20,510 nucleotides of DNA from Solirubrobacterales bacterium (GTDB lineage Bacteria; Actinomycetota; Thermoleophilia; Solirubrobacterales; Solirubrobacteraceae). The translations under genes were made by a program, and so were the position numbers. The notes beneath the pieces are model-generated. The model worked only from the letters and a program-made list of their open reading frames with translations, ran no database searches and was not told the origin of the DNA. Location: positions 13,039 to 33,548 of the forward strand of contig PLBZ01000092.1 in the NCBI GenBank assembly GCA_003134675.1, read 5' to 3'. Positions 5,201 to 13,830 of this stretch are shown here, one piece after another; the first letter of the stretch is position 1; each line of letters opens with the position of its first letter.

Positions 5201-6355
5201 CTATAGGGGCAGCGCAAGCTGATCCAGCGGGCTCCGTAAACCGTCGGCGCCGTCGGCAGGCCCGTCCGGCGACCCGTCCAGAGCGCCGAGTCGGCTCGCC
5301 GGCTCGGCGAAAACCGAAGCGGCGGTGGAGGATAGGCCTGCGACCCGCACGCCGAGCAGGCGCACCGGCCGTGCGGGCGCGTACTCGTCGAGCAGCCGCA
5401 GTGCAACCGCGCTCACCAGCTCGTCATCGCAGGTGGGCTCCGCGACCGAATGAGCGCGGGTGACCGTCGTGAAGTCATCGAGACGGATCTTGATCCCGAT
5501 TGTGCGGCCCCGGCGTCCGTGGGCGAGGAGACTCGTGCACAGCTCGCCTGACATCCGCCTGAGCGCCTCCCGCAGGGCCGCCGGGTCACGGATGTCCTCG
5601 TCGAAGGTCCGCTCGCGCGACTCGGAGACTACCTTGCGCGCGGCTCCCACCTCGCCATCGTGCTCGAACCGCGCACGTCTGCCTAGTTCGCGGCCAAGGT
5701 TCGGGCCGAAGCGCTCGACCAGCACCTGCTCAGGGGCATCCCCAACGGCTGTGAGAGTGGTCAACCCCACTGCGGCCAAGCGCGCCGCGGTCTTCGGCCC
5801 GATGCCGGGCACCAGCCCCGGCGGCGAGTCCGCAAACCTCCGGCAGGCCTGCTCGCGGGTCAGCACGACGAACCCCGCGGGCTTCTCGGCGTCAGATGCC
5901 ACCTTGGCCACAAGCTTGTTGGGCCCGATGCCCACCGAGCACGTCAACCCAATCGACTTGCGGATCTCAACCACCAAGCGCCGCATCGCTGCGCGAGGTG
6001 AGTACAGCCCAGACAAGTCCAGGTAGGCCTCATCCAGTCCCACCACCTCCACCTGCTCCACATGGGTTCGTACGAGGTCCATCATTTGCTGGGACACTTT
6101 GCGGTAAGTCGGAAAATCGGGTGCCAGAAACACGGCCTGCGGGCACAGTCGTCTCGCTCGAGACGCCGGGATCGCGGACCCCACGCCATAGCGGCGAGCC
6201 TCGTAGCTGGCGGTCGTTACGACTGCACGCGGCCCACTGCCGGCCACCACGACGGGCTTGCCGCGCAGCTCGGGGTGGCGGCCAAGCTCGATTGAAACGT
6301 AGAAGGCGTCTGCATCGAGATGGGCGGTGCTCAGCTCGGAGTGCTCAGTGAGCAT
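5201..6355 (-). CDS. dinB: DNA polymerase IV (Y-family, DinB)
   Basis: A 384-residue Y-family translesion DNA polymerase. The palm motifs are HLDADAFYVSIE (Asp14, Asp16) and GLDEAYLDL (Asp108/Glu109), giving the metal-binding acidic set. The VGIGPNKLVAKVAS segment, the thumb helix-hairpin-helix (PGIGPKTAARL) and the little-finger domain follow. The last six residues, QLALPL, fit the beta-clamp binding motif. ATG 6355 is preferred over an in-frame TTG at 6364 because the decayed dinB copy at 11513-11593 aligns with its own GTG start exactly at this codon. TAGATT (6369-6364) upstream could be its -10 box. No LexA-type operator was found. Two hydrolase genes follow closely. Confidence 0.93.
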   Translation of the reverse strand: MLTEHSELSTAHLDADAFYVSIELGRHPELRGKPVVVAGSGPRAVVTTASYEARRYGVGSAIPASRARRLCPQAVFLAPDFPTYRKVSQQMMDLVRTHVEQVEVVGLDEAYLDLSGLYSPRAAMRRLVVEIRKSIGLTCSVGIGPNKLVAKVASDAEKPAGFVVLTREQACRRFADSPPGLVPGIGPKTAARLAAVGLTTLTAVGDAPEQVLVERFGPNLGRELGRRARFEHDGEVGAARKVVSESRERTFDEDIRDPAALREALRRMSGELCTSLLAHGRRGRTIGIKIRLDDFTTVTRAHSVAEPTCDDELVSAVALRLLDEYAPARPVRLLGVRVAGLSSTAASVFAEPASRLGALDGSPDGPADGADGLRSPLDQLALPL

Positions 6356-6369
6356 GCCGGCCAAATCTA
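6303..6369 (-). repeat. Direct repeat, copy 1: dinB 5' end (partner at 11526-11593)
   Basis: By hand alignment, 6303-6346 matches 11526-11569 at 36 of 44 positions, and the AATCTA block at 6364-6369 recurs at 11588-11593. Both copies have the same orientation. They bracket the rskA-sigK-ferritin-tatAC block. Confidence 0.7.
6364..6369 (-). promoter_or_regulatory. Candidate -10 box of dinB
   Basis: On the minus strand TAGATT ends 8 nt before ATG 6355. The same hexamer is kept upstream of the start codon in the decayed dinB copy (11593-11588, 9 nt from its GTG). Conservation in a relic supports a real promoter element. No clear -35 hexamer was found. Confidence 0.4.
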
Positions 6370-6498: not shown

Positions 6499-7221
6499 TT
6501 ATGTGTGGAGGACGACGCGCAATACGGGCGAGCTCGTCGGGCGGGAGCTGCCGCCGAGTGGCTCTGAGGTGACCATCACTTCCTTCACTCCGTGCAGGTT
6601 GCCGGGGACGTTGACCGACCCACTGCCCGTGCCGGTCACGTTGAAGAGCGCGTCTGTGGGCTGCGGCGAGCCCGAGCCGCGGCTCAGCCACACCTCATAG
6701 ATCTTGCCGAGTGCAGGCTGTGGCATGCCTGAGACCACCAGTTCAGCGCGACTGTCGAGGAGGCGCAGAGAAGCGTGCCCGCCGGGGATGCTCGGCGCAA
6801 CCTGCGCGACGGTCACGCGCTCCGGCGCGGTTGAGCCGACGTTGTTGAGCACGATTACGGCTGCGACCGCCACGCTTGCCGCGAGCGCGACCGATGCCGT
6901 CAGCAATGGGCCGCGGCGCGATCGCCAGCGGCTCACGGGCTTTGGCGGCTCGTCCATCTGGTGGCCGGCGGCCCAGAGCAGCCCCGCCTCCGAGCGGACC
7001 GTCGCGAGTACCCGCTCGCGCAGGGCCCGCGGGGCGAGGACGGGTGGGACGGTCGCGGGCAGGGTGTCGACTACGAGCTGCAGCTCGGCCACCTCCGCTC
7101 GACAGGTCGCGCATCCGTCGAAGTGCACACGGAAGCTGTCGGGCGCGTCGAGCGCCCCGAGGACATAGGGGGCGGCATCGACGCTCTGCTCACAGCCGAG
7201 GCCCTTCTCACGCGAGCTCAT
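6499..7221 (-). CDS. rskA: RskA-family membrane anti-sigma factor
   Basis: A 240-residue anti-sigma factor. The N-terminal cytoplasmic zinc-binding anti-sigma domain has HFDGCATC (His33, Cys37, Cys40), with Cys10 as a likely further ligand. One transmembrane segment lies at about 106-126 after a basic stretch. The extracytoplasmic part (about 135-240) has the RskA C-terminal pattern: VVSGMPQPALGKIYEVWLS and VMVTSEPLGGSSRPTSSPV. In the known SigK-RskA pair, this class holds the sigma factor at the membrane and releases it on regulated proteolysis. The start overlaps the sigma gene stop as ATGA, so stoichiometric coupled translation is expected. The symbol is by family; orthology to mycobacterial RskA is not proven. 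Confidence 0.85.
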   Translation of the reverse strand: MSSREKGLGCEQSVDAAPYVLGALDAPDSFRVHFDGCATCRAEVAELQLVVDTLPATVPPVLAPRALRERVLATVRSEAGLLWAAGHQMDEPPKPVSRWRSRRGPLLTASVALAASVAVAAVIVLNNVGSTAPERVTVAQVAPSIPGGHASLRLLDSRAELVVSGMPQPALGKIYEVWLSRGSGSPQPTDALFNVTGTGSGSVNVPGNLHGVKEVMVTSEPLGGSSRPTSSPVLRVVLHT

Positions 7222-7826
7222 GTCCCTACCGCCTGCCAGTCTCCGAGGTGGCCGCGAAGCTTTTCCAGTCCGAGGCGCATACGGCCCTTGACCGTCCCGA
7301 TCGGCGCGTTGAGCATCGAGGCGATCTCGGTATGTGTGAAGCCACTAAAATATGCTAGCTCGATGACGCGCCGCTGCTCGCTGGGCAGCTCGTTGAGCGC
7401 CACACGGATCTTATCGGATGCAGCGTTGTCGATGGCCTGGGCGTCGGTCCGCTCGGGCGCCTCGAGGTCTTCCTCGAGCCCCTCGGCGCTGGCGCGGCGG
7501 CGGTCGTGGACGCTGTTGCGGCGTAATCCGTCGATCGCGCGGTTGTGCACTATGCCGAGCGTCCATGACCGCACGCTCCCGCGCGTGCGGTCATAGCGAG
7601 CGCCGCTGCGCCACAGCGCCAGGAAAGACTCCTGTGCGACCTCTTCGGCGACCGCCGGCCTGCCGCACATGCGGTAGGCCAGCGAGAACGCGGCGTCGGC
7701 GTGGCGCTCGAAAATGATCTCAAACGCATTGGCATCACCGGCAGCGACGAGCTGCATGAGCTCCTCGTCGGCAAGCTTTCTCAGCCTGTCCTTTGAATCT
7801 ACGGCCGTACGCCGCGAGCGGGACAT
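7218..7826 (-). CDS. sigK: ECF sigma factor (SigK-like)
   Basis: A 202-residue extracytoplasmic-function sigma-70 factor. Region 2 spans about residues 30-100 (AFEIIFERHADAAFSLAYRM, AEEVAQESFLALWRS, then a region 2.4-like RSWTLGIVHNRAIDGLRR). Region 4 is at about 142-192 (LPSEQRRVIELAYFSGFTHT, EIASMLNAPIGTVKGRMRLG), a normal helix-turn-helix. Pairing with an RskA-type anti-sigma gene makes it SigK-like; precise ECF group assignment needs a profile search. No Shine-Dalgarno precedes ATG 7826; a TACAGT box 6 nt upstream suggests a leaderless transcript. It is divergent from the ferritin-like/tat operon, the natural candidate target. The symbol is tentative. Confidence 0.85.
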   Translation of the reverse strand: MSRSRRTAVDSKDRLRKLADEELMQLVAAGDANAFEIIFERHADAAFSLAYRMCGRPAVAEEVAQESFLALWRSGARYDRTRGSVRSWTLGIVHNRAIDGLRRNSVHDRRRASAEGLEEDLEAPERTDAQAIDNAASDKIRVALNELPSEQRRVIELAYFSGFTHTEIASMLNAPIGTVKGRMRLGLEKLRGHLGDWQAVGT

Positions 7827-8008
7827 TGACCAACTGTACGCACGCGAGGATCTCCTGGATCACCCAACCCTCTGCGGGGCCTGAATCGATCAACCCCCTG
7901 CGCGATCGGGTGTATTCGCCAGCGCCGGCGGCAGTCAGCGCGCTCTCCCGATGCCGTGCCCGAGCCATCTTCTGATCCGCCACTGCCTCCTCCACGTATA
8001 GGAGGTCA
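7827..8008. promoter_or_regulatory. Divergent regulatory region between sigma gene and ferritin-like operon
   Basis: This gap must hold the promoters for both directions. Two CAACCC tracts occur at 7865-7870 and 7891-7896, inside an imperfect repeat (GATCACCCAACCC and GATCAACCCCC). AAC-type hexamers are common in ECF -35 elements, so these are candidates for sigma binding. I could not pair either with a convincing -10, so no exact promoter is called. No inverted repeat or other gene is evident. Confidence 0.35.
7833..7838 (-). promoter_or_regulatory. Candidate leaderless -10 box for the sigma factor gene
   Basis: On the minus strand TACAGT ends 6 nt before ATG 7826, which would place the transcript start at the ATG. 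The same hexamer occurs before the GTG of the ABC exporter at 1642. No good -35 was found, so an alternative sigma factor is possible. Confidence 0.35.
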
Positions 8009-8065
8009 ATGGCACGACCCGACATCTCCGGGCGGCCGGCAACCGACAAGGAGACAAAGCAATGA
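8009..8065 (+). CDS. Possible 18-codon leader peptide overlapping the first ferritin-like gene
   Basis: ATG 8009 follows a full AGGAGG (8000-8005), with only 3 nt between them. It encodes an 18-residue peptide, MARPDISGRPATDKETKQ. Its TGA (8063-8065) overlaps the ATG of the first ferritin-like gene as ATGA. The arrangement resembles the coupled overlaps seen twice elsewhere in the window. It has no family resemblance and may only deliver ribosomes to the downstream start, which also has its own AAGGAG. The short spacing makes efficient initiation uncertain. Confidence 0.35.
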   Translation: MARPDISGRPATDKETKQ

Positions 8066-8757
8066 GCTATCAGATCAACATTGACGAGGTCGATGTCGAC
8101 GGTGCTGTTCGTGAGGCGGCAGAGGAGGTTTCGGGCGATACCCGTCTGAGCTTCCTGACCAAGGCAGGGGTCGGCGCGGCGGGAGTGATGAGCGGCGGCG
8201 CGGTCCTGTCGGCGCTTGCGCCCACGGCGTTTGCTGCTGGCGGTGGCCGTCCCCCGGCTTCGTTCGGCAAGGGTGACATTGGAATCCTCAACTACGCCCT
8301 CACGCTGGAGTACCTGGAGGCCGCTTTCTACAACGGCGCGACCGCGGCCAACCTGCCGCTCAGCACACAGGCGTCGGTATTCCTCAAGGTCGTCACCAAG
8401 GACGAGAACGCCCATGTCGCGTTCTTGAAGAAAGCGCTCGGCTCGAAGGCTGCGAAGGAACCGAAGTTCGACTTCAAAGGCGCCAACACCAACGCGGAAA
8501 TGTTCCTGAAGACCGCGCAGGTGCTCGAGAACACCGGCGTGCACGCTTACTCCGGACAGGCGTTGAACATCAAGAAGGGCGCCTACGTGAAGGCTGCCGT
8601 GTCGATCCTCACAATCGAGGCGCGTCACGCCAGCGTGATCGGTCTCCTGAACGACCCCAGCGGCGAAATGATCGCCCCCGACGGTCCGTTTGACACGCCG
8701 TTCACCGCCGCCGAGGTGCTCGCCGCCGTGAAGGGCACCGGCTTCATCGTCGGCTAA
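8062..8757 (+). CDS. Exported ferritin-like domain protein 1
   Basis: A 231-residue protein of the Ferritin_2 (desiccation-related) type. The four-helix diiron pattern is complete: LTLEYLE (Glu83, Glu86), ENAH (Glu115, His118), Glu156 in VLENTG, and EARH (Glu186, His189). An N-terminal leader runs from about residue 27: TRLSFLTKAG, an alanine/glycine-rich hydrophobic stretch, then a cleavage-like AFA (56-58). TRLSFLTK resembles the Tat consensus S/T-R-R-x-F-L-K with Leu in place of the second Arg. ATG 8062 follows AAGGAG (8048-8053) by 8 nt. It is first of three tandem paralogues ahead of tatA and tatC. Family members may bind or oxidise iron or protect against peroxide; the exact activity here is unknown. 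Confidence 0.85.
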   Translation: MSYQINIDEVDVDGAVREAAEEVSGDTRLSFLTKAGVGAAGVMSGGAVLSALAPTAFAAGGGRPPASFGKGDIGILNYALTLEYLEAAFYNGATAANLPLSTQASVFLKVVTKDENAHVAFLKKALGSKAAKEPKFDFKGANTNAEMFLKTAQVLENTGVHAYSGQALNIKKGAYVKAAVSILTIEARHASVIGLLNDPSGEMIAPDGPFDTPFTAAEVLAAVKGTGFIVG

Positions 8758-8813
8758 ACGGAGTGAACCCAGCACAGCTTGATGTGATCCGAAGTTTTTC
8801 ATTTCCTGCGAAT

Positions 8814-8819
8814 AGGAGG
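8814..8819 (+). promoter_or_regulatory. Ribosome binding site deciding the second ferritin-like start
   Basis: A perfect AGGAGG lies 9 nt before ATG 8829. This favours ATG 8829 over an in-frame GTG at 8763, which would add 22 residues without any leader-like character. Confidence 0.75.
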
Positions 8820-8828
8820 CGTCCCGTT

Positions 8829-9539
8829 ATGTCCAGTCCAGCGAACGAGCAATCCGAGCAGCCGGTGCCCCAGCCGGCTGGGATCGTCGAGCGCCTTGTG
8901 CGCGACGACTCTGACCGCAAGCGCTTTCTGAAGATGGCCGGCGCTGCGGGTGCCACAAGCTTCGGGGCGTTCGTGCTCGCCGCCTGCGGGAGCAGCAGCA
9001 AAAGTAAAACAGCCGCCTCGACAGCGGCGGCGCCACCAACGACGAGCACAGCGGCTCAGAACAGCAGCACGGGTGATCTGGCAATCGTTAACTACGCCCT
9101 GACGCTCGAGTACCTGGAGACCGAGTTCTACGCCAAGGTCGTCGCCTCTGGCCTGTTCACCGGCACGGTCGGCAACCTGATCAAGGACTTCGGGGCCCAG
9201 GAGCAGACCCATGTGGAAGCGCTCAAAGGCACCGCTGAAAAGCTCGGTGGGACACCCGCGGCCAAGCCGGAAGGGAAGTTCCCGATCCAGTCGGCCTCGC
9301 AGGTGGCGCATCTCGCGTACACCGTCGAGAACCTTGGCGCCTCGGCCTATCTCGGCCAGGCCGGGAGCATCCAAAGCCCCGAAGTGCTCGCCGCGGCCTT
9401 GGCGATCCATACGGTCGAGGCGCGTCACGCAGCGACGCTCGGCACGCTCGTCAAGAAGTCAGTCACACCGGATGGCGCGTTCGCCAAGCCTGCCGACATG
9501 CCCACGGTCCTGGCGGCGGTCAAACCGTTCCTGGCCTAA
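8829..9539 (+). CDS. Ferritin-like lipoprotein 2 (Tat-like leader with lipobox)
   Basis: A 236-residue ferritin-like paralogue with a lipoprotein leader. DRKRFLKMAGAAG (29-41) is Tat-like with RK for RR, followed by a hydrophobic stretch and the lipobox LAAC with Cys53 as the lipidation site. A Ser/Thr/Ala-rich linker (54-80) leads to the diiron domain: LTLEYLE (Glu94, Glu97), EQTH (Glu125, His128), Glu167 in TVENLG and EARH (Glu197, His200). So this copy should be anchored on the outer face of the membrane, while its two neighbours appear to be released. It starts 71 nt after paralogue 1 and ends 31 nt before paralogue 3. Confidence 0.87.
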   Translation: MSSPANEQSEQPVPQPAGIVERLVRDDSDRKRFLKMAGAAGATSFGAFVLAACGSSSKSKTAASTAAAPPTTSTAAQNSSTGDLAIVNYALTLEYLETEFYAKVVASGLFTGTVGNLIKDFGAQEQTHVEALKGTAEKLGGTPAAKPEGKFPIQSASQVAHLAYTVENLGASAYLGQAGSIQSPEVLAAALAIHTVEARHAATLGTLVKKSVTPDGAFAKPADMPTVLAAVKPFLA

Positions 9540-9570
9540 AACCTCAACGAGCTACATGAAAGGAACTGAA

Positions 9571-10200
9571 ATGAGCAATCACGAGATAGCCAACCCGCAG
9601 TTGGGTGGTGTCGAGGTTCATGGCATGACCCGCGCTAGCTTCATACTGCGCGGCACGCTGGCCGCAGGCGCCGTCTACGGCCTGGGATCGGTGGCGCCGT
9701 TCGTCTCCCAGGCGTTTGCCGCGGGCGGCGGGGATGCGGAAATCCTCAACTTCGCCCTCACCCTGGAGTACCTGGAGGCCGACTTCTACACCGTCAAGGG
9801 CAGACAGGTTGGCCTCTCCGGCCAGGCCAGGGCGTACGCGTCGCAGTTCAGCGCCGAGGAGTCAGAGCACGTCACCGCGCTCACCGCTGCGATCAAGCAG
9901 CTCGGCGGCACGCCCGTGAAGAAACCGACGTTCGTGTTCCCCACATCCGATGAAAAGTCGTTCCTGGCGTTGGCCTCGACACTCGAGAACACAGGTGTCG
10001 GCGCCTACAACGGCGCCGGGCCATCGATCAAGGATAAGAAGGTACTGGCCGCGGCCGGCAGCATTGTTCAGATCGAGGCGCGTCACGCCGCGGCGATCGA
10101 CCTGCTGATCGGCAAGAGCCCGACACCAAACCAGGGCTTTGACAGGCCGATCGAACAGGCCAAGGTCCTCACGGCGGTAAAGCCGCTTATCAAGGCCTGA
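9571..10200 (+). CDS. Exported ferritin-like domain protein 3
   Basis: A 209-residue third paralogue. The leader TRASFILRGTLAAG (20-33) is Tat-like with Ala replacing the second Arg, and is followed by a hydrophobic stretch ending SQAFA (46-50), a likely cleavage site. Diiron ligands are complete: LTLEYLE (Glu66, Glu69), ESEH (Glu97, His100), Glu139 in TLENTG and EARH (Glu169, His172). ATG 9571 is chosen because AAAGGA (9559-9564) sits 6 nt upstream. The frame is open far upstream inside paralogue 2, but that part reads as arginine/serine-rich noise. Core nucleotide blocks such as the LEYLE and EARH segments are almost identical to those of paralogues 1 and 2, pointing to tandem duplication. 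Confidence 0.87.
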   Translation: MSNHEIANPQLGGVEVHGMTRASFILRGTLAAGAVYGLGSVAPFVSQAFAAGGGDAEILNFALTLEYLEADFYTVKGRQVGLSGQARAYASQFSAEESEHVTALTAAIKQLGGTPVKKPTFVFPTSDEKSFLALASTLENTGVGAYNGAGPSIKDKKVLAAAGSIVQIEARHAAAIDLLIGKSPTPNQGFDRPIEQAKVLTAVKPLIKA

Positions 10201-10221
10201 GCCTGCGCCGACAGGCGGCGC
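10201..10221 (+). other. Small stem-loop between ferritin-like gene 3 and tatA
   Basis: Directly after the stop, GCCTG...CAGGC (6-nt loop) or, alternatively, GCGCC...GGCGC (7-nt loop) can pair. These mutually exclusive 5-bp stems could partly terminate or stabilise the upstream mRNA, giving more ferritin than Tat message. Weak; no U-tract. Confidence 0.25.
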
Positions 10222-10260
10222 TGGCTATCCCGTAACCAGACAGAGGAGTTGATCCACACC

Positions 10261-10509
10261 ATGGGACTCGATAACCCAATCCACATAGCGTTTCTGCTGA
10301 TCCTGCTGCTGCTCGTCTTCGGAGCCAAGCGACTGCCCGAGATGGGCCGCTCGCTCGGCAGCGGGATGCGCGGCTTCAAGGACTCGCTCAGCGGCGAGAG
10401 CGCCGAGCCGTCACTGAGCAGCACCGAGCAGCAGCCGACCCCGATAACAACCCACAACACCCCCGCCCCGGCAGCAGTCGCACAGCCCACGCCGCCGGCC
10501 GCCGCCTGA
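10261..10509 (+). CDS. tatA: Twin-arginine translocase subunit TatA
   Basis: An 82-residue TatA-family protein with a short N-terminal transmembrane helix (about 7-20), the hinge FG at 20-21, and the amphipathic helix GAKRLPEMGRSLGSGMRGFK (21-40), all classic TatA features. A Pro/Thr/Ala-rich tail follows. His8 occupies the polar position that is Gln8 in E. coli TatA. ATG 10261 gives the canonical short N-terminus; AGGAG (10244-10248) is 12 nt away, rather far, and an in-frame TTG at 10249 is possible but too close to it. TatA forms the pore-type oligomer of the Tat system. No separate tatB is seen here, so this may be a minimal TatAC system or rely on a TatB elsewhere. Confidence 0.9.
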   Translation: MGLDNPIHIAFLLILLLLVFGAKRLPEMGRSLGSGMRGFKDSLSGESAEPSLSSTEQQPTPITTHNTPAPAAVAQPTPPAAA

Positions 10510-10537
10510 GCGCCAACGACGAGCGCCGGGAGAGATT

Positions 10538-11512
10538 ATGGCTGTAGCGGCTGGCCACATCGGCCACGAAGACCGACTGGACGTCGTCGAGCACCTAACG
10601 GAGCTGCGGGTACGGCTGATCATCTCCCTGGCGGCACTCGCCGTCGCGTTCGGCCTGTGCATGTGGCAGAACCACACGCTGCTGAACATCATCAACAAGC
10701 CGCTCGCACACCAAACCCAAAAACAGGTGCGCGCGGGTAACGGCCCGCTCGGCGCTACCTACACCGTCCAGCAAAGCGCGCGCACCGTCGCAACCCAACT
10801 GGAGGTCGTGGTCGGCACGCTGCAGCGACCGGGCAGCGGCGCGTCAGCGGCCACACGCGCTTCTCTTGCCGGCGTGACCCCAGAACTCCACAAGGCGATC
10901 ACCGGTCTCTCCAAGCCACCCGAAGGCGACAAGCCCGTGACCTTGGGGATCGGTGAGCCATTCACGACCACGATCGGCGTGGCGCTGATCTTCGCGTTCA
11001 TCCTCGCCCTGCCGGTCATCCTCTACGAGCTCTACGGGTTCCTGCTGCCGGCATTCAGCCCCGAGCAGCAGAAGATCACATCCTCGCTCATGCTGTCAAT
11101 CCCGTTCCTCTTCATAGCCGGGGTGACATTCGGCTATTTCGTCGTCCTGCCGGCAGCGGTCCGCTTCTTTCAGAACTTCAACAGCAGCGAGTTCAACGTC
11201 CTCGTGCAAGCCAACCAGTACTACCACTTCGCCGCCGTCACACTGCTCGCGATGGGACTCATCTTCCAAGTCCCCGTTGGCATCCTCGCAGCCACACGCA
11301 CAGGGATCGTCACACCCCACCAGGTGCGCCACAACCGTCGCTACGCGATCCTCGCCTGCGGAGCCGTCGCCGCGTTCCTACCAGGCGACGCGATCACGCT
11401 CCTACTCGAGACAGTCCCGCTATACCTGCTGTTCGAGGCAAGCCTGCTGCTCGCCACGATCGTCGAACACAGGGAGAAAGCACGCGCGGCGCGCTTGTTC
11501 CGTTCTCGATAG
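10538..11512 (+). CDS. tatC: Twin-arginine translocase subunit TatC with enlarged first extracytoplasmic loop
   Basis: A 324-residue TatC, the receptor for twin-arginine signal peptides. The N-terminal motif HLTELRVRL keeps Glu22 (E. coli Glu15), and SPEQQK keeps Glu176 (E. coli Glu103), the two residues that contact the arginine pair. Six helices lie near 26-43, 146-166, 186-206, 230-252, 268-283 and 287-308. Between KPL (54-56) and EPFTT (140-144) there are about 83 residues against about 17 in E. coli, so the first extracytoplasmic loop carries roughly 65 extra residues. Helix 4 reads IFQVPVG where E. coli has SFEVPVA, with Gln244 at the Glu170 position. ATG 10538 follows GGGAG at 5 nt. 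It is last in the ferritin-tat operon. Confidence 0.9.
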   Translation: MAVAAGHIGHEDRLDVVEHLTELRVRLIISLAALAVAFGLCMWQNHTLLNIINKPLAHQTQKQVRAGNGPLGATYTVQQSARTVATQLEVVVGTLQRPGSGASAATRASLAGVTPELHKAITGLSKPPEGDKPVTLGIGEPFTTTIGVALIFAFILALPVILYELYGFLLPAFSPEQQKITSSLMLSIPFLFIAGVTFGYFVVLPAAVRFFQNFNSSEFNVLVQANQYYHFAAVTLLAMGLIFQVPVGILAATRTGIVTPHQVRHNRRYAILACGAVAAFLPGDAITLLLETVPLYLLFEASLLLATIVEHREKARAARLFRSR

Positions 11513-11622: not shown

Positions 11623-12645
11623 TCAGCCAACCGGCGAGCCTGCTCGCCGCGCCAGGATCGCAGCCAAACGAGCGCGGTGAGACTTCGCGCCGCCGAGCAG
11701 CGCAGCGTCGAGCTGTGCGCGCTTGTACAGCCAGTGGACGTCGGCCTCCCAGGTGAATCCGATGCCTCCGTGAGCCTGGATCGCGCTCGCGGTGACCTCG
11801 CGCCCGGCATCCGAGGCAGCCGCCTTGGCCATCGCCGCCGCCTCGGCGAGCCGCTCGGGGTCTGCGTCGGCGGTCCACGCCGCGAACGCCGCCGTGGAGC
11901 GGGCCTTCTCGGTGTCGAGCAGCATCTGCGCGCAGCGGTGTGAAACCGCCTGGTAGGAGCCGACCGGGACACCGAACTGCTTGCGCTCCTTCACGTAGGC
12001 GACGGTCATCTCCAGTGCCCGGTCGCACACACCGACCAGCTCAGAGGCGACCGCGACGATCGCGCGGTCAACGCCGGCGGCGCTGTCGCCGTCGAGCGTC
12101 TCTCCAGCCCCCGCCGGTGCGCTCACACGCGCCGCCGTGCGTGTCGGGTCGATCGAGGCGAGCGGAGTGACCTCCACCTCCTCGACGGCAAGGACTCGCG
12201 CCTGCTCGCCTTCGACGAGGACCACCACCTGGGCATCCGGCGCTCCGATTACCAACTCGGCAGTACCGTTGCGAGCCAGGCCGATCGCGCCGATGCTCGT
12301 GCCGCTGGCCAGGTCTCCCAGCCAGCGCTCCTGCTGGGATTGGGACCCGGAGTGCTCGATCAGCGTGGCCGCGAGCACGCTTCCCATAAACGGCACCGGA
12401 GCGACTGCTCGCCCCAGCTCCTCGCACAGGATCGACAGCTCGACCCGGCCGAGACCCTGGCCGCCATGCTCCTCCGATACCGCGATGCCGGGCCACCCGA
12501 GCTCGCACAGCTCGCTCCACAGGCGCTCGTCGGTGCGGCCAGTCTCGGCGTGCTCGCGCACGCGCTCGGGCCTCGCGCGCTCGGCCAGAAGCTCGCGTGC
12601 GGTGCGCTGTATTTCGCGCTGGTCGTCGGTGAGACCAAAATCCAT
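11623..12645 (-). CDS. Acyl-CoA dehydrogenase, small partner subunit (FadE28/ChsE1-like)
   Basis: A 340-residue acyl-CoA dehydrogenase fold protein. Start MDFGLTDDQREIQRTARELL, then the helical N-terminal domain, a short and poorly conserved beta domain, and the C-terminal helical domain with VKERKQFGVPVGSYQAVSHR and QAHGGIGFTWEADVHWLYKR, the FAD-contacting motifs. The NER-type catalytic Glu seen in its neighbour is not present. That combination, and the 340/388 residue lengths, match the actinobacterial heteromeric dehydrogenases (such as ChsE1-ChsE2), in which only one subunit carries the catalytic base. ATG 12645 follows a strong purine-rich GGAGGG. It lies 18 nt after the stop of its partner in the same operon. 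Confidence 0.85.
   Translation of the reverse strand: MDFGLTDDQREIQRTARELLAERARPERVREHAETGRTDERLWSELCELGWPGIAVSEEHGGQGLGRVELSILCEELGRAVAPVPFMGSVLAATLIEHSGSQSQQERWLGDLASGTSIGAIGLARNGTAELVIGAPDAQVVVLVEGEQARVLAVEEVEVTPLASIDPTRTAARVSAPAGAGETLDGDSAAGVDRAIVAVASELVGVCDRALEMTVAYVKERKQFGVPVGSYQAVSHRCAQMLLDTEKARSTAAFAAWTADADPERLAEAAAMAKAAASDAGREVTASAIQAHGGIGFTWEADVHWLYKRAQLDAALLGGAKSHRARLAAILARRAGSPVG
11633..11648. repeat. Inverted repeat near the 3' end of the acyl-CoA dehydrogenase gene
   Basis: GGCGAGC-CT-GCTCGCC has perfect 7-bp arms inside the last codons of the small dehydrogenase subunit, near the convergent tatC end. It could act as a weak transcription stop for either direction, but has no U-tract and may simply reflect Gly/Ala/Arg codon use. 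Confidence 0.25.
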
Positions 12646-12663
12646 ACCTCTCCCCCCTCCCTC

Positions 12664-13830
12664 CTACGCCGTGGCCTTCAGGCGCGGCAGGCCAAGCACG
12701 CGCTCGGCGACGATGTTCTTCAGCACCTCGGTGGTGCCCCCCTCCAGGGTGTTGCCTCTAGCGCGCAGCAGCTCATAGCTCCAGCTGGTGCCGGCGGTGA
12801 GCGCCTGTGGCCCGATCACGTCGGCGGCAAGCTGGGTCAGGCGTTGGTTGGTGTCCGACCACAGCCACTTCACCAGCGAGCCCTCGGGGCCCGGCTGACC
12901 GTACTTCTCGACGTCGGTCAGGCCCTTCCAGGCGAGCAGCCGAATCGACTCGCAGCGCACGTGCAGCTCCGCCAGCGCGTCGGCGTACAGCGCATCCTCC
13001 AGCAGCCCGCGCTCGGCCGCGATCGCGATCAGGTCGTCGAGCAGCTGGCGCAGGCGGATCTGGAGCGCGAAGCCCAGGCCGGCGCGCTCGTTCATGAGCG
13101 TCGTCAGCGCGACCTTCCAGCCATTGCCCACGCCGCCGACGACGTTCGCGTCGGGAATCCGTGCCTCCTCGATGAACAGCTCGTTGAACTCCGCCTCGCC
13201 CGTGATCTGACGCAGCGGACGCACCTGCACGGCATCCTGCTCCATGTCCATCAGGAAATACGTCAATCCCTTGTGCTTGGCGACCTCGCCGTCCGTGCGC
13301 GCCACGAGCATGCACCACTTCGAGTACTGCGCCCCGCTCGTCCAGACCTTCTGGCCCGTCACGACCCACTCCTCACCGTCCTTGACCGCACGTGTCTTCA
13401 GCGCAGCGAGGTCAGAGCCGGCGTCCGGCTCGGAGAACCCCTGGCACCAGATCTCCTCGGCCGAGAGGATCGGCGCCAGGTAGCGATCCTTCTGCTCCTG
13501 GGTACCCCACACCATCAGCGTCGGGCCGCCCAGCAGCAGACCCAGGACGTTGGCCGCCATTGGGACCCGAGCCCGGCCGAGCTCCTCGAAGTAGATCGCC
13601 GACTCGGTCAGCGACGCGCCGCGGCCGCCGTACTCCGTCGGCCAGGACGGCGCCGCCCAGCCAGCGTCGTATAGGCGCCTCTGCCAGTCGCGCCGCCAGA
13701 AGAAATGAGTCCCCTCCCTACCCTCGTCCTCTCCGCCCTCGCTGGGCTCAGGCGCGGGCGGATTCTCGGCGAGCCAGCCGCGCAGCTCCCCGCGAAAGGC
13801 GGTCTCTTGCTCACTGAACGTCAGGTCCAT
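12664..13830 (-). CDS. Acyl-CoA dehydrogenase, catalytic large subunit (FadE29/ChsE2-like)
   Basis: A 388-residue flavoprotein acyl-CoA dehydrogenase (alpha,beta-desaturation of acyl-CoA). Motifs: WPTEYGGRGAS (63-73), QGFSEPDAGSDLAALKTRAV (130-149, FAD/substrate), VTGQKVWTSGA (157-167), LTTLMNERAG (242-251) with Glu248 in the place of the catalytic base known for the heteromeric actinobacterial enzymes, and GGTTEVLKNIVAERVLGLPR near the end. First gene of a two-gene unit with the smaller dehydrogenase. Known pairs of this kind act in degradation of steroid or bile-acid side chains; no other steroid gene is in the window, so the substrate is open. ATG 13830 follows GGAGGGAG (13842-13835). TAGGAT further upstream is a possible -10. 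Confidence 0.87.
   Translation of the reverse strand: MDLTFSEQETAFRGELRGWLAENPPAPEPSEGGEDEGREGTHFFWRRDWQRRLYDAGWAAPSWPTEYGGRGASLTESAIYFEELGRARVPMAANVLGLLLGGPTLMVWGTQEQKDRYLAPILSAEEIWCQGFSEPDAGSDLAALKTRAVKDGEEWVVTGQKVWTSGAQYSKWCMLVARTDGEVAKHKGLTYFLMDMEQDAVQVRPLRQITGEAEFNELFIEEARIPDANVVGGVGNGWKVALTTLMNERAGLGFALQIRLRQLLDDLIAIAAERGLLEDALYADALAELHVRCESIRLLAWKGLTDVEKYGQPGPEGSLVKWLWSDTNQRLTQLAADVIGPQALTAGTSWSYELLRARGNTLEGGTTEVLKNIVAERVLGLPRLKATA

Follow-up and report, generated by a model that had tools for sequence, protein, structure and literature searches.

A putative ECF sigma/RskA-controlled export module with Ferritin_2 cargo and its own TatA–TatC pair in the Solirubrobacteraceae

A cargo gene that stands by its own minimal TatA–TatC pair, which forms a second twin-arginine translocation (Tat) system and is induced jointly with the cargo under stress, is already known from phoD-tatAd-tatCd of Bacillus subtilis, as described in the available passages of PMC3068169. 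Sigma factors paired with anti-sigma factors have likewise been described in the RpoE–ChrR singlet-oxygen regulons (PMC5507510 and PMC4336711, in part) and in the SigK–RskA pair (ECF18/19; PMC7509140, in part). Here we describe a module of seven genes, in which an extracytoplasmic function (ECF) sigma factor gene and an rskA-type anti-sigma gene stand divergent from three Ferritin_2 genes (ferA, ferB, and ferC), tatA, and tatC. The module lies in a 20,510-nucleotide stretch (the window; contig PLBZ01000092.1, positions 13,039 to 33,548) of the assembly GCA_003134675.1 of a Solirubrobacterales bacterium, whose family, the Solirubrobacteraceae, belongs to the class Thermoleophilia (NCBI taxonomy). 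From the gene content and its conservation, a shared promoter motif, a second TatC in relatives, and the loss of particular residues, all of which were computed directly, we infer that the module is probably a sigma/anti-sigma-controlled export regulon with a dedicated second TatA–TatC pair.

The window is part of a 33.5-kb contig of a metagenome-assembled genome (MAG) of 1.43 Mb that is 66.7% complete. Genes were called from reading frames together with Pfam and NCBIfam profile searches at curated cut-offs. An initial annotation of this DNA had proposed a sigma/RskA pair divergent from three ferritin-like genes followed by tatA and tatC, and all seven genes were found in their places (Table 1). 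The sigma factor was best matched by the NCBIfam model PRK09646 (SigK) with 146.7 bits and missed the cut-off of 226, so it is not a SigK orthologue by that cut-off. A cytoplasmic HxxxCxxC motif (HFDGCATC) was read in the sequence of the anti-sigma factor. The scores of the three Ferritin_2 proteins spanned 127.7–139.8 bits, compared with a PF13668 cut-off of 24.7 bits.

Table 1. Positions of the module genes, promoter-like sites, and flanking genes in the window.
Feature	Position	Strand	Evidence and remarks
rskA-type membrane anti-sigma gene	6499..7221	-	PF10099 RskA_C 54.3 bits (cut-off 29.4); NF052375 101.2 bits (cut-off 100, barely passed)
ECF sigma gene, SigK/RpoE-like	7218..7826	-	PF04542 and PF08281 (regions 2 and 4); overlaps rskA by 4 bases
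Motif GTGATCC-N16-CGTACA	7835..7863	-	ends 9 bases upstream of the sigma ATG
Motif CTGATCC-N16-CGTATA	7972..8000	+	62 bases upstream of ferA
ferA, Ferritin_2	8062..8757	+	PF13668 130.8 bits; signal DTRLSFLTKAG, AxA-type end
Weaker promoter-like site GTGATCC-N18-CGAATA	8784..8814	+	upstream of ferB
ferB, Ferritin_2 lipoprotein	8829..9539	+	PF13668 127.7 bits; signal SDRKRFLKMAG, lipobox LAAC
ferC, Ferritin_2	9571..10200	+	PF13668 139.8 bits; signal GMTRASFILRG; start corrected
tatA	10261..10509	+	PF02416 54.0 bits; TIGR01411 52.7 bits (cut-off 53.9, narrowly missed)
tatC, long first periplasmic loop	10538..11512	+	PF00902 171.8 bits (cut-off 25.1); TIGR00945 155.8 bits (cut-off 132.7)
DNA polymerase IV gene (flank)	5201..6364		
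Acyl-CoA dehydrogenase gene pair (flank)	11623..13830		

The flanking stretches of relatives were then searched for the window genes, with f1 denoting the window's own family and f2, f3, and f7 other families of the same class. The module is conserved, its parts keeping company while their order varies, across three of these families (f1, f3, and f7). The window order was repeated in the f1 genome G355 (locus L079), with the RskA–Sig pair followed by FerA–FerB–FerC–TatA–TatC, and the parts recurred rearranged elsewhere: FerA–FerB–FerC–TatA–TatC–Sig–RskA in G346; the same run without TatC in G349 (FerA–FerB–FerC–TatA–Sig–RskA); TatA–Sig–RskA with a divergent FerA and TatC in G336, where FerB–FerC lie on a different contig; three Fer genes with TatA–TatC and no Sig within 16 kb in G303; TatA–TatC–FerA in G254; and Sig–RskA–TatA–TatC in G160, G208, and G359, followed in G208 by a distant Ferritin_2 protein and accompanied in G160 by FerB–FerC elsewhere. 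G358 and G356 complete the f1 genomes with module linkage. In family f3, FerB/FerC were divergent from TatA–TatC with Sig and RskA alongside in G103 and G118, and G169 carries a TatC truncated by the contig end, RskA–Sig, and FerB–FerC. In family f7, G057 holds a single run of Sig–RskA–Fer–Fer–TatA–TatC, and G079, G179, G365, G221, G223, and G231 hold Fer with TatA–TatC, Sig being absent from the stretch read; an RskA-like frame lies 3' of TatC in G079. A fer-tat run whose TatC is 78% identical to that of the window was also seen on a contig named 'Chlamydiae bacterium' (L177), which is probably mis-binned or mis-named.

An unbiased listing of 5-mer pairs shared upstream of Sig, Fer, and Tat genes at 10 loci yielded TGATCC together with CGTA or CGAA 16 bases further on (TGATCC-N16-CG[TA]A). 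At 22 module-gene loci (296 kb), which include the 10 discovery loci, 43 sites were found at spacing 16 compared with 0–5 at spacings 8–15 and 17–25; in a control of 798 kb of unselected stretches from G160 and G336, 6 sites were found at spacing 16 and 0–10 at other spacings. Sites preceded TatA in 14 of 19 cases, Sig in 8 of 13, FerB in 7 of 11, and FerA in 4 of 9, with lower counts for FerC (2/12), TatC (2/18), RskA (1/12), and cupredoxin (0/1); some of the low counts reflect genes that lie within operons or have over-extended starts. Moreover, the motif stood upstream of the tat genes at 11 of 13 cassette-clade loci (the clade is defined below) versus 1 of 31 unlinked tat loci, and at all four cassette loci outside the discovery set (L087, L043, L046, and L138). 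The motif read backwards gave 4 matches versus 90 for the motif itself in eight genomes. CTAG is rare in many bacteria, and because the reversed pattern contains CTAG this control was set aside as main evidence and the spacing scan and the tat-locus comparison were used instead. The initial annotation had suggested that the export genes have their own regulator, which agrees with the conserved neighbourhood and with a sigma-type promoter motif that stays with the genes through their rearrangements. The site in front of the sigma gene would point to autoregulation by way of a near-leaderless transcript.

The motif also extends beyond the tat loci. It was found upstream of unlinked FerB–FerC pairs in G160 and G350 and upstream of exported cupredoxins (PF13473) in G160, G359, and G346, which makes cupredoxin a likely further member of the regulon in relatives, a point absent from the initial annotation. 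The cupredoxins that lie beside or behind the motif are at L137 10567-11004, L089 8642-9238, L183 5126-5677, and L081 8739-9389; L183 shows a TatA–TatC–cupredoxin run with no exact site directly upstream of the cupredoxin. Single sites, which may be chance, also stand 5–73 bases before a FAD oxidoreductase gene (G349, L161 +1527), a universal-stress protein gene (G336, L167 +1527), and, in the genome of the window itself, the gene of a membrane peptide of 51 residues (L157 -392). In family f2, the motif lies directly before the tatA of a TatC at L363 7424-8507 (G264).

The mycobacterial SigK-type promoter has the form CCATCC/CGAATA. As a candidate for the module it gave one weak match in 45 upstream regions and was dropped. 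The module motif is identical to a consensus described elsewhere: in the available passages of PMC5507510, TGATCC-N16-CGTA is the chromatin immunoprecipitation sequencing consensus of an RpoE/ChrR-type sigma factor of Pseudomonas syringae that responds to singlet oxygen and t-butyl hydroperoxide, and Shewanella RpoE2 promoters are reported to have the same consensus (PMC4336711, in part). By analogy, the signal for the module may be oxidative or photo-oxidative stress. The anti-sigma factor is of the RskA type and not ChrR, so the signal may differ.

The initial annotation had further proposed that the module brings its own export route, and relatives do hold a cassette TatC besides a separate TatC. 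PF00902 matches were counted in 30 genomes of our choosing, and 13 of them had at least two. In 10 of the 13 the extra TatC stands beside Sig and/or Fer (G355, G346, G336, G358, G303, G160, G254, G208, G356, and G359), and in 2 more (G238 and G347) it stands with TatA behind the promoter motif; in the remaining one (G278) the second TatC is on a 3.1-kb contig. Eight genomes of genus g1 without linkage have a single TatC (G341, G344, G352, G186, G290, G216, G151, and G246), and PF13668 was absent from six of them and weakly matched in two. Among the 61 f7 genomes searched, two full-length TatC matches were found in seven (G079, G179, G365, G221, G223, G057, and G003), in each of which one TatC adjoins Fer; four further genomes have a fragment as their second match, and the lone TatC of G231 adjoins Fer. 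In relatives, therefore, a second TatC linked to cargo or regulator lies behind the shared promoter motif.

In a tree of 56 TatC sequences, from which the incomplete G358 row was excluded, the linked f1 TatCs formed one clade of 12 (100/100), sister to 14 housekeeping TatCs of genus g1. The members of this cassette clade from genera g14 and g119 have another TatC that falls elsewhere in the tree. This topology suggests a single duplication and subsequent transfer between genera, and the whole cassette may have moved as a unit. In the window's own genome the module's PF13668 genes are the only ones found and the module TatC is the only TatC found, and two further genes of the TatA/B type lie on separate contigs; judging from its relatives, the organism would be expected to have a second TatC. 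As a separate observation, the TatCs of the window's family (the window tatC and L020-L057) have a first periplasmic loop lengthened by an insertion of about 60 residues, and full-length matches outside f1 were few among the matches listed (f3: G103, G118, and G172).

Export leaders were present on all three Ferritin_2 proteins, one of them a lipoprotein, as the initial annotation had noted; it left unmentioned that a twin arginine (RR) is absent from all three. The window signals keep the first arginine (R1) and lack the second (R2): FerA TRLSFL, FerB DRKRFL, and FerC TRASFI. Among f1 module rows the residue in place of R2 is Leu in FerA, Lys in FerB, and Ala, Ser, or Gly in FerC. R1 was kept and R2 absent in 24 of 24 FerA, FerB, and FerC sequences from f1 module loci and FerB–FerC pairs (three each from the window, L079, L080, L078, and G303 [L077 and L093], one each from L086, L087, and L043, and the pairs L085, L088, and L089). 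Considering all f1 and f3 Ferritin_2 proteins with a readable signal, 60 of 76 were R1-only and 16 RR; these came from 82 distinct rows, of which 6 without a readable signal were dropped, and inclusion of the FerB of L057 (SRKRFM) would give 61 of 77. The f7 set was similar, with 34 of 39 R1-only and 5 RR after 2 of 41 distinct rows without an N-terminus were dropped.

Outside the class, RR was present in all 6 visible signals of seven Ferritin_2 proteins from four records, which were read out of 64 plasmid records that matched. Within the class, Miltoncostaea oceani has one R1-only and two RR Ferritin_2 proteins; the plasmid of this cultured organism, which might serve for laboratory work (L348, NZ_CP064357.1), bears an adjacent FerB–FerC-like pair, in which the FerC-like protein, 58% identical to the window FerC, is R1-only (TRSAFV) and the FerB-like protein is RR. 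Furthermore, EfeB/Dyp cargo of f1 showed RR in 22 of 22 visible N-termini, a set that includes L266; L255 starts too late for its signal to be seen, and seven further Dyp loci have no exported-type N-terminus by pattern. Loss of R2 across whole organisms is ruled out by these 22 N-termini. Together with the RR signals outside the class, they make R2 loss look like a derived trait of the Ferritin_2 cargo within this class rather than a general property of Tat signals in these organisms. In 40 stretches taken from G160 and G336, each of about 20 kb, too few Tat-like signals turned up to be informative.

The absence of a twin arginine from every one of the module signals raises the alternative that FerA, FerB, and FerC leave by the Sec pathway, with TatA–TatC as chance neighbours or serving other cargo. 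The R2 replacements include Leu, Ala, Gly, and Ser, and lipoprotein signals of the FerB type can go via Sec. The signals nevertheless keep the features of Tat signals, namely the first Arg, Phe at +3, and a weakly hydrophobic, Gly/Ala-rich h-region preceded by [ST]R-x-x-F-[LI]. The 15-residue hydrophobicity maximum of the h-region was 1.65 for 84 R1-only Ferritin_2 signals, close to the values for 12 RR Ferritin_2 signals (1.61) and 21 EfeB signals (1.54), a comparison confined to these three sets. With the uniformly RR signals outside the class and the recurrence of the TatA–TatC linkage in three families, we consider Sec export unlikely, and export of the Ferritin_2 proteins by Tat remains the preferred reading.

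The TatC residues that face the signal were mapped by alignment to Escherichia coli TatC (9dzz_A), whose numbering is used here. In a cryo-electron microscopy (cryo-EM) study of 2026, R1 contacts Glu15 via water and stacks under Phe94, R2 forms a salt bridge with Glu103, and E103A serves as the binding-negative control (PMC13323110, available passages). Phe94 and Glu103 are described as almost completely invariant, the inactive E103K regains function with signals of higher hydrophobicity, which can also make single-arginine signals work (PMC5539426, in part); E103G and E103K are also given as inactivating in the part of PMC3712464 available. The window TatC has Gln in place of Glu103 (PAFSPEQQK) and keeps the equivalents of Glu15 and Phe94. 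Among 57 TatC rows of the f1 set, of which the 13th linked row (G358) ends before the Glu103 site, none of the 12 members of the cassette clade has Glu at this site (Gln in 8, Ala in 2, Asp in 1, and Arg in 1), whereas 44 of 44 other TatCs have it, including two linked f3 TatCs. The equivalent of Glu15 was present in 57 of 57 rows, the window included, and Phe94 in 56 of 57. The loss of Glu103 in f1 is one event on the tree.

R2 is thus absent from the cargo and its contact Glu103 from the TatC, so that the same thing is missing from cargo and receptor, and neither loss had been pointed out in the initial annotation. This would be consistent with a single-arginine Tat route, in which cargo with R1 and Phe is received by a TatC with Glu15 and Phe94, the R2–Glu103 bridge is gone on both sides, and an insulated, sigma-controlled second system exports its own metalloenzymes while RR cargo is left to the Glu103-type TatC. 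We put this route forward tentatively and regard it as rather doubtful.

A number of observations weigh against a dedicated and selective second Tat system under the control of this sigma factor. Recognition of the motif by the sigma factor is putative; the window tatA has no motif upstream, the spacer of the ferB site is 18 in the window and 16 in L079, L080, and L078, only 2 of the 4 motif matches of the window's genome lie inside the module, and L093 and L177, both with a fer-tat run, have no site near their module genes. The second TatC of the window organism can be deduced only from relatives, because the MAG is incomplete and shows the cassette TatC alone. In genus g26 of f3 the linked TatC is the sole TatC and belongs to a separate lineage. 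The cassette of G349 lacks TatC, and the one TatC of that genome is unlinked; G350 combines FerB–FerC behind the motif with one TatC, so the cargo can live without a second TatC. With regard to residues, R1-only signals occur where only a Glu103-type TatC was found (G077 and G316), Glu103-less cassette TatCs adjoin canonical RR proteins in G208 and G356, and Glu103 is present in 0 of 36 f7 TatCs read (L308-L337), linked or not, although this residue is called almost invariant in all domains; the f7 count leaves out two mislabelled rows, L362 (G172, f3) and L363 (G264, f2).

These observations fit another explanation, in which the genes form a sigma regulon and any Tat system exports the cargo, the second TatA–TatC adding stress capacity without specificity and the loss of Glu103 being drift in a duplicate. 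The R2-less cargo of G077 and G316, the motif-preceded FerB–FerC of G350, the RR neighbours in G208 and G356, and the f7 TatCs all favour it. The cassette TatC is otherwise well conserved (59–78% identity in the alignment, with Glu15 and Phe94 kept) and not decaying, and in f1 the loss of Glu103 maps onto the linkage clade, the second TatC within each of these genomes retaining the residue. We therefore regard this explanation as quite possible, with the balance tilting against it, and retain the dedicated second TatA–TatC as the probable reading. Some RR cargo occurs in f7 despite its Glu103-less TatCs, namely Ferritin_2 of G267, G241, G227, and G231 and the EfeB of G085. As R1-only cargo occurs with Glu103-type TatC and RR cargo with Glu103-less TatC, the cassette TatC may accept signals with or without R2 and not select for those that lack it.

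Loss of Glu103 was also considered as a general marker of linkage and rejected, since f7 lacks Glu103 in linked and unlinked TatCs and the linked f3 TatCs (G103, G118, and G172) keep it. Gln in place of Glu103 was seen in the f2 TatC of L363 as well; one other TatC read in that genome (G264) has Glu at this site, and four TatC matches were counted in the genome. In addition, a 79-residue protein with no Pfam match and a canonical TRRAFVKR signal lies behind the motif at L140 5027-5266, adjoining the cassette TatC of G356.

With regard to the cargo, FerA shares 40% identity with FerB and 46% with FerC. The helix-1 pair Glu83 and Glu86, Glu115-x2-His118, Glu156, and Glu186-x2-His189 (FerA numbering) are invariant in the three proteins, and the same ligand residues are invariant throughout a wider alignment of 16 sequences that includes these three. 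The full diiron ligand set noted in the initial annotation is thus borne out at residue level and would fit a four-helix dinuclear site. The closest solved relative by sequence is the tardigrade protein RvY_06210 (E 6e-16). According to the available passages of PMC11616004, the tardigrade proteins RvFeMP-1 and RvFeMP-2 and DRB0118 of Deinococcus are metabolite phosphatases; RvY_06210 and DRB0118 are reported as dimers, and RvY_06210 is reported to have a dinuclear metal site and to act also on damaged nucleotides. Alignment places Glu51, Glu90-x2-His93, and Glu132 of RvFeMP-1 at the Glu, ExxH, and Glu of the module proteins, while its Asp162 aligns with Glu. On this alignment the window proteins carry Gly in place of Asp135 and an additional helix-1 Glu, both of which are described for DRB0118 (PMC11616004, in part). 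RvY_06210 was also considered as a tardigrade Mn-peroxidase and this was dropped, as PMC9145152 (in part) describes g12777 with a beta-sandwich domain and PMC11616004 gives a phosphatase.

The initial annotation had favoured an envelope iron system, and a true ferritin function in envelope iron storage or iron oxidation could draw on the ferritin-like fold of the family and on its carboxylate and His ligands for two metals. Classical ferritin and bacterioferritin families gave no match at E 0.001 in Pfam, where PF13668 was the only hit, and none in NCBIfam, and the PF13668 members with published biochemistry, RvY_06210 and DRB0118 among them, are the phosphatases named above. An iron store is therefore very unlikely in our view. 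Given these relatives, FerA, FerB, and FerC are most likely stress-induced extracytoplasmic dinuclear-metal enzymes, as judged from sequence. Export by Tat would fit proteins that load metals in the cytoplasm.

Taken together, the following model can be proposed. The RskA-type membrane anti-sigma factor would hold the ECF sigma factor and free it in response to a signal at the envelope, which is probably oxidative or photo-oxidative stress. The freed sigma factor would recognise TGATCC-N16-CG[TA]A and transcribe its own operon and ferA-ferB-ferC-tatA-tatC, and in relatives the cupredoxin gene too. While still in the cytoplasm, the Ferritin_2 proteins would fold and bind two metal ions each; they would then cross the membrane in folded form through the co-made TatA–TatC, a Tat system additional to the housekeeping one, with FerB remaining as a lipoprotein. 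Outside, they would most likely act as dinuclear-metal enzymes, in metabolite phosphatase activity or the detoxification of reactive oxygen, and not as iron stores. The R2–Glu103 contact would have been dropped in cargo and cassette TatC, and the R1–Glu15 contact and the Phe–Phe94 pocket retained. The genes that flank the module in the window are listed in Table 1; the flanks of relatives gave one weak acyl-CoA dehydrogenase match only.

In current structural work on Tat, E103A is an inactive, binding-negative control (PMC13323110, in part), and R2 counts as a part of the defining motif. Natural TatCs without Glu103 that are co-regulated with cargo without R2 lend themselves directly to the question of how much of the twin-arginine code is required, and the module is equally suited to asking how two Tat systems in one cell separate their cargo. 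It would also tie an ECF/RskA pair to a concrete regulon, suggest an export route for a stress enzyme family known from tardigrades and Deinococcus, and help annotators to recognise Tat cargo that may escape predictors based on RR.

Among openly licensed PMC papers, no report was found of ECF/RskA control combined with Ferritin_2 cargo and joint loss of R2 and Glu103, and the comparison with known systems can be drawn as follows. The promoter is common to the module and the RpoE–ChrR regulons, while the module anti-sigma factor matches RskA_C and no ChrR-type model at E 0.001 in Pfam or NCBIfam; its tat, Ferritin_2, and cupredoxin genes lie outside the core genes published for those regulons, as far as the available passages of PMC5507510 and PMC4336711 give them. 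With SigK–RskA the module shares the closest sigma model, an RskA_C anti-sigma factor, and an overlapping gene pair. It differs in missing the SigK cut-off, in the absence of the mycobacterial promoter form from 44 of 45 regions, and in the linked genes. A plasmid of Thermus thermophilus (L351, NZ_LR027520.1) clusters genes for a sigma-70 factor, an anti-sigma factor, Ferritin_2, a peroxiredoxin-like protein, and imelysin, and so likewise sets a regulator pair beside Ferritin_2; its annotation shows no tat gene over the 8.5 kb covered, and its one visible Ferritin_2 signal is RR. A parallel in gene arrangement is phoD-tatAd-tatCd, in which a phosphodiesterase is the cargo, as PF13668 enzymes tested elsewhere are phosphatases. 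As the available passages of PMC3068169 describe it, that system responds to phosphate starvation, whereas the module has an ECF sigma factor with RskA as its regulator, a different cargo family in up to three copies without R2, and a TatC without Glu103.

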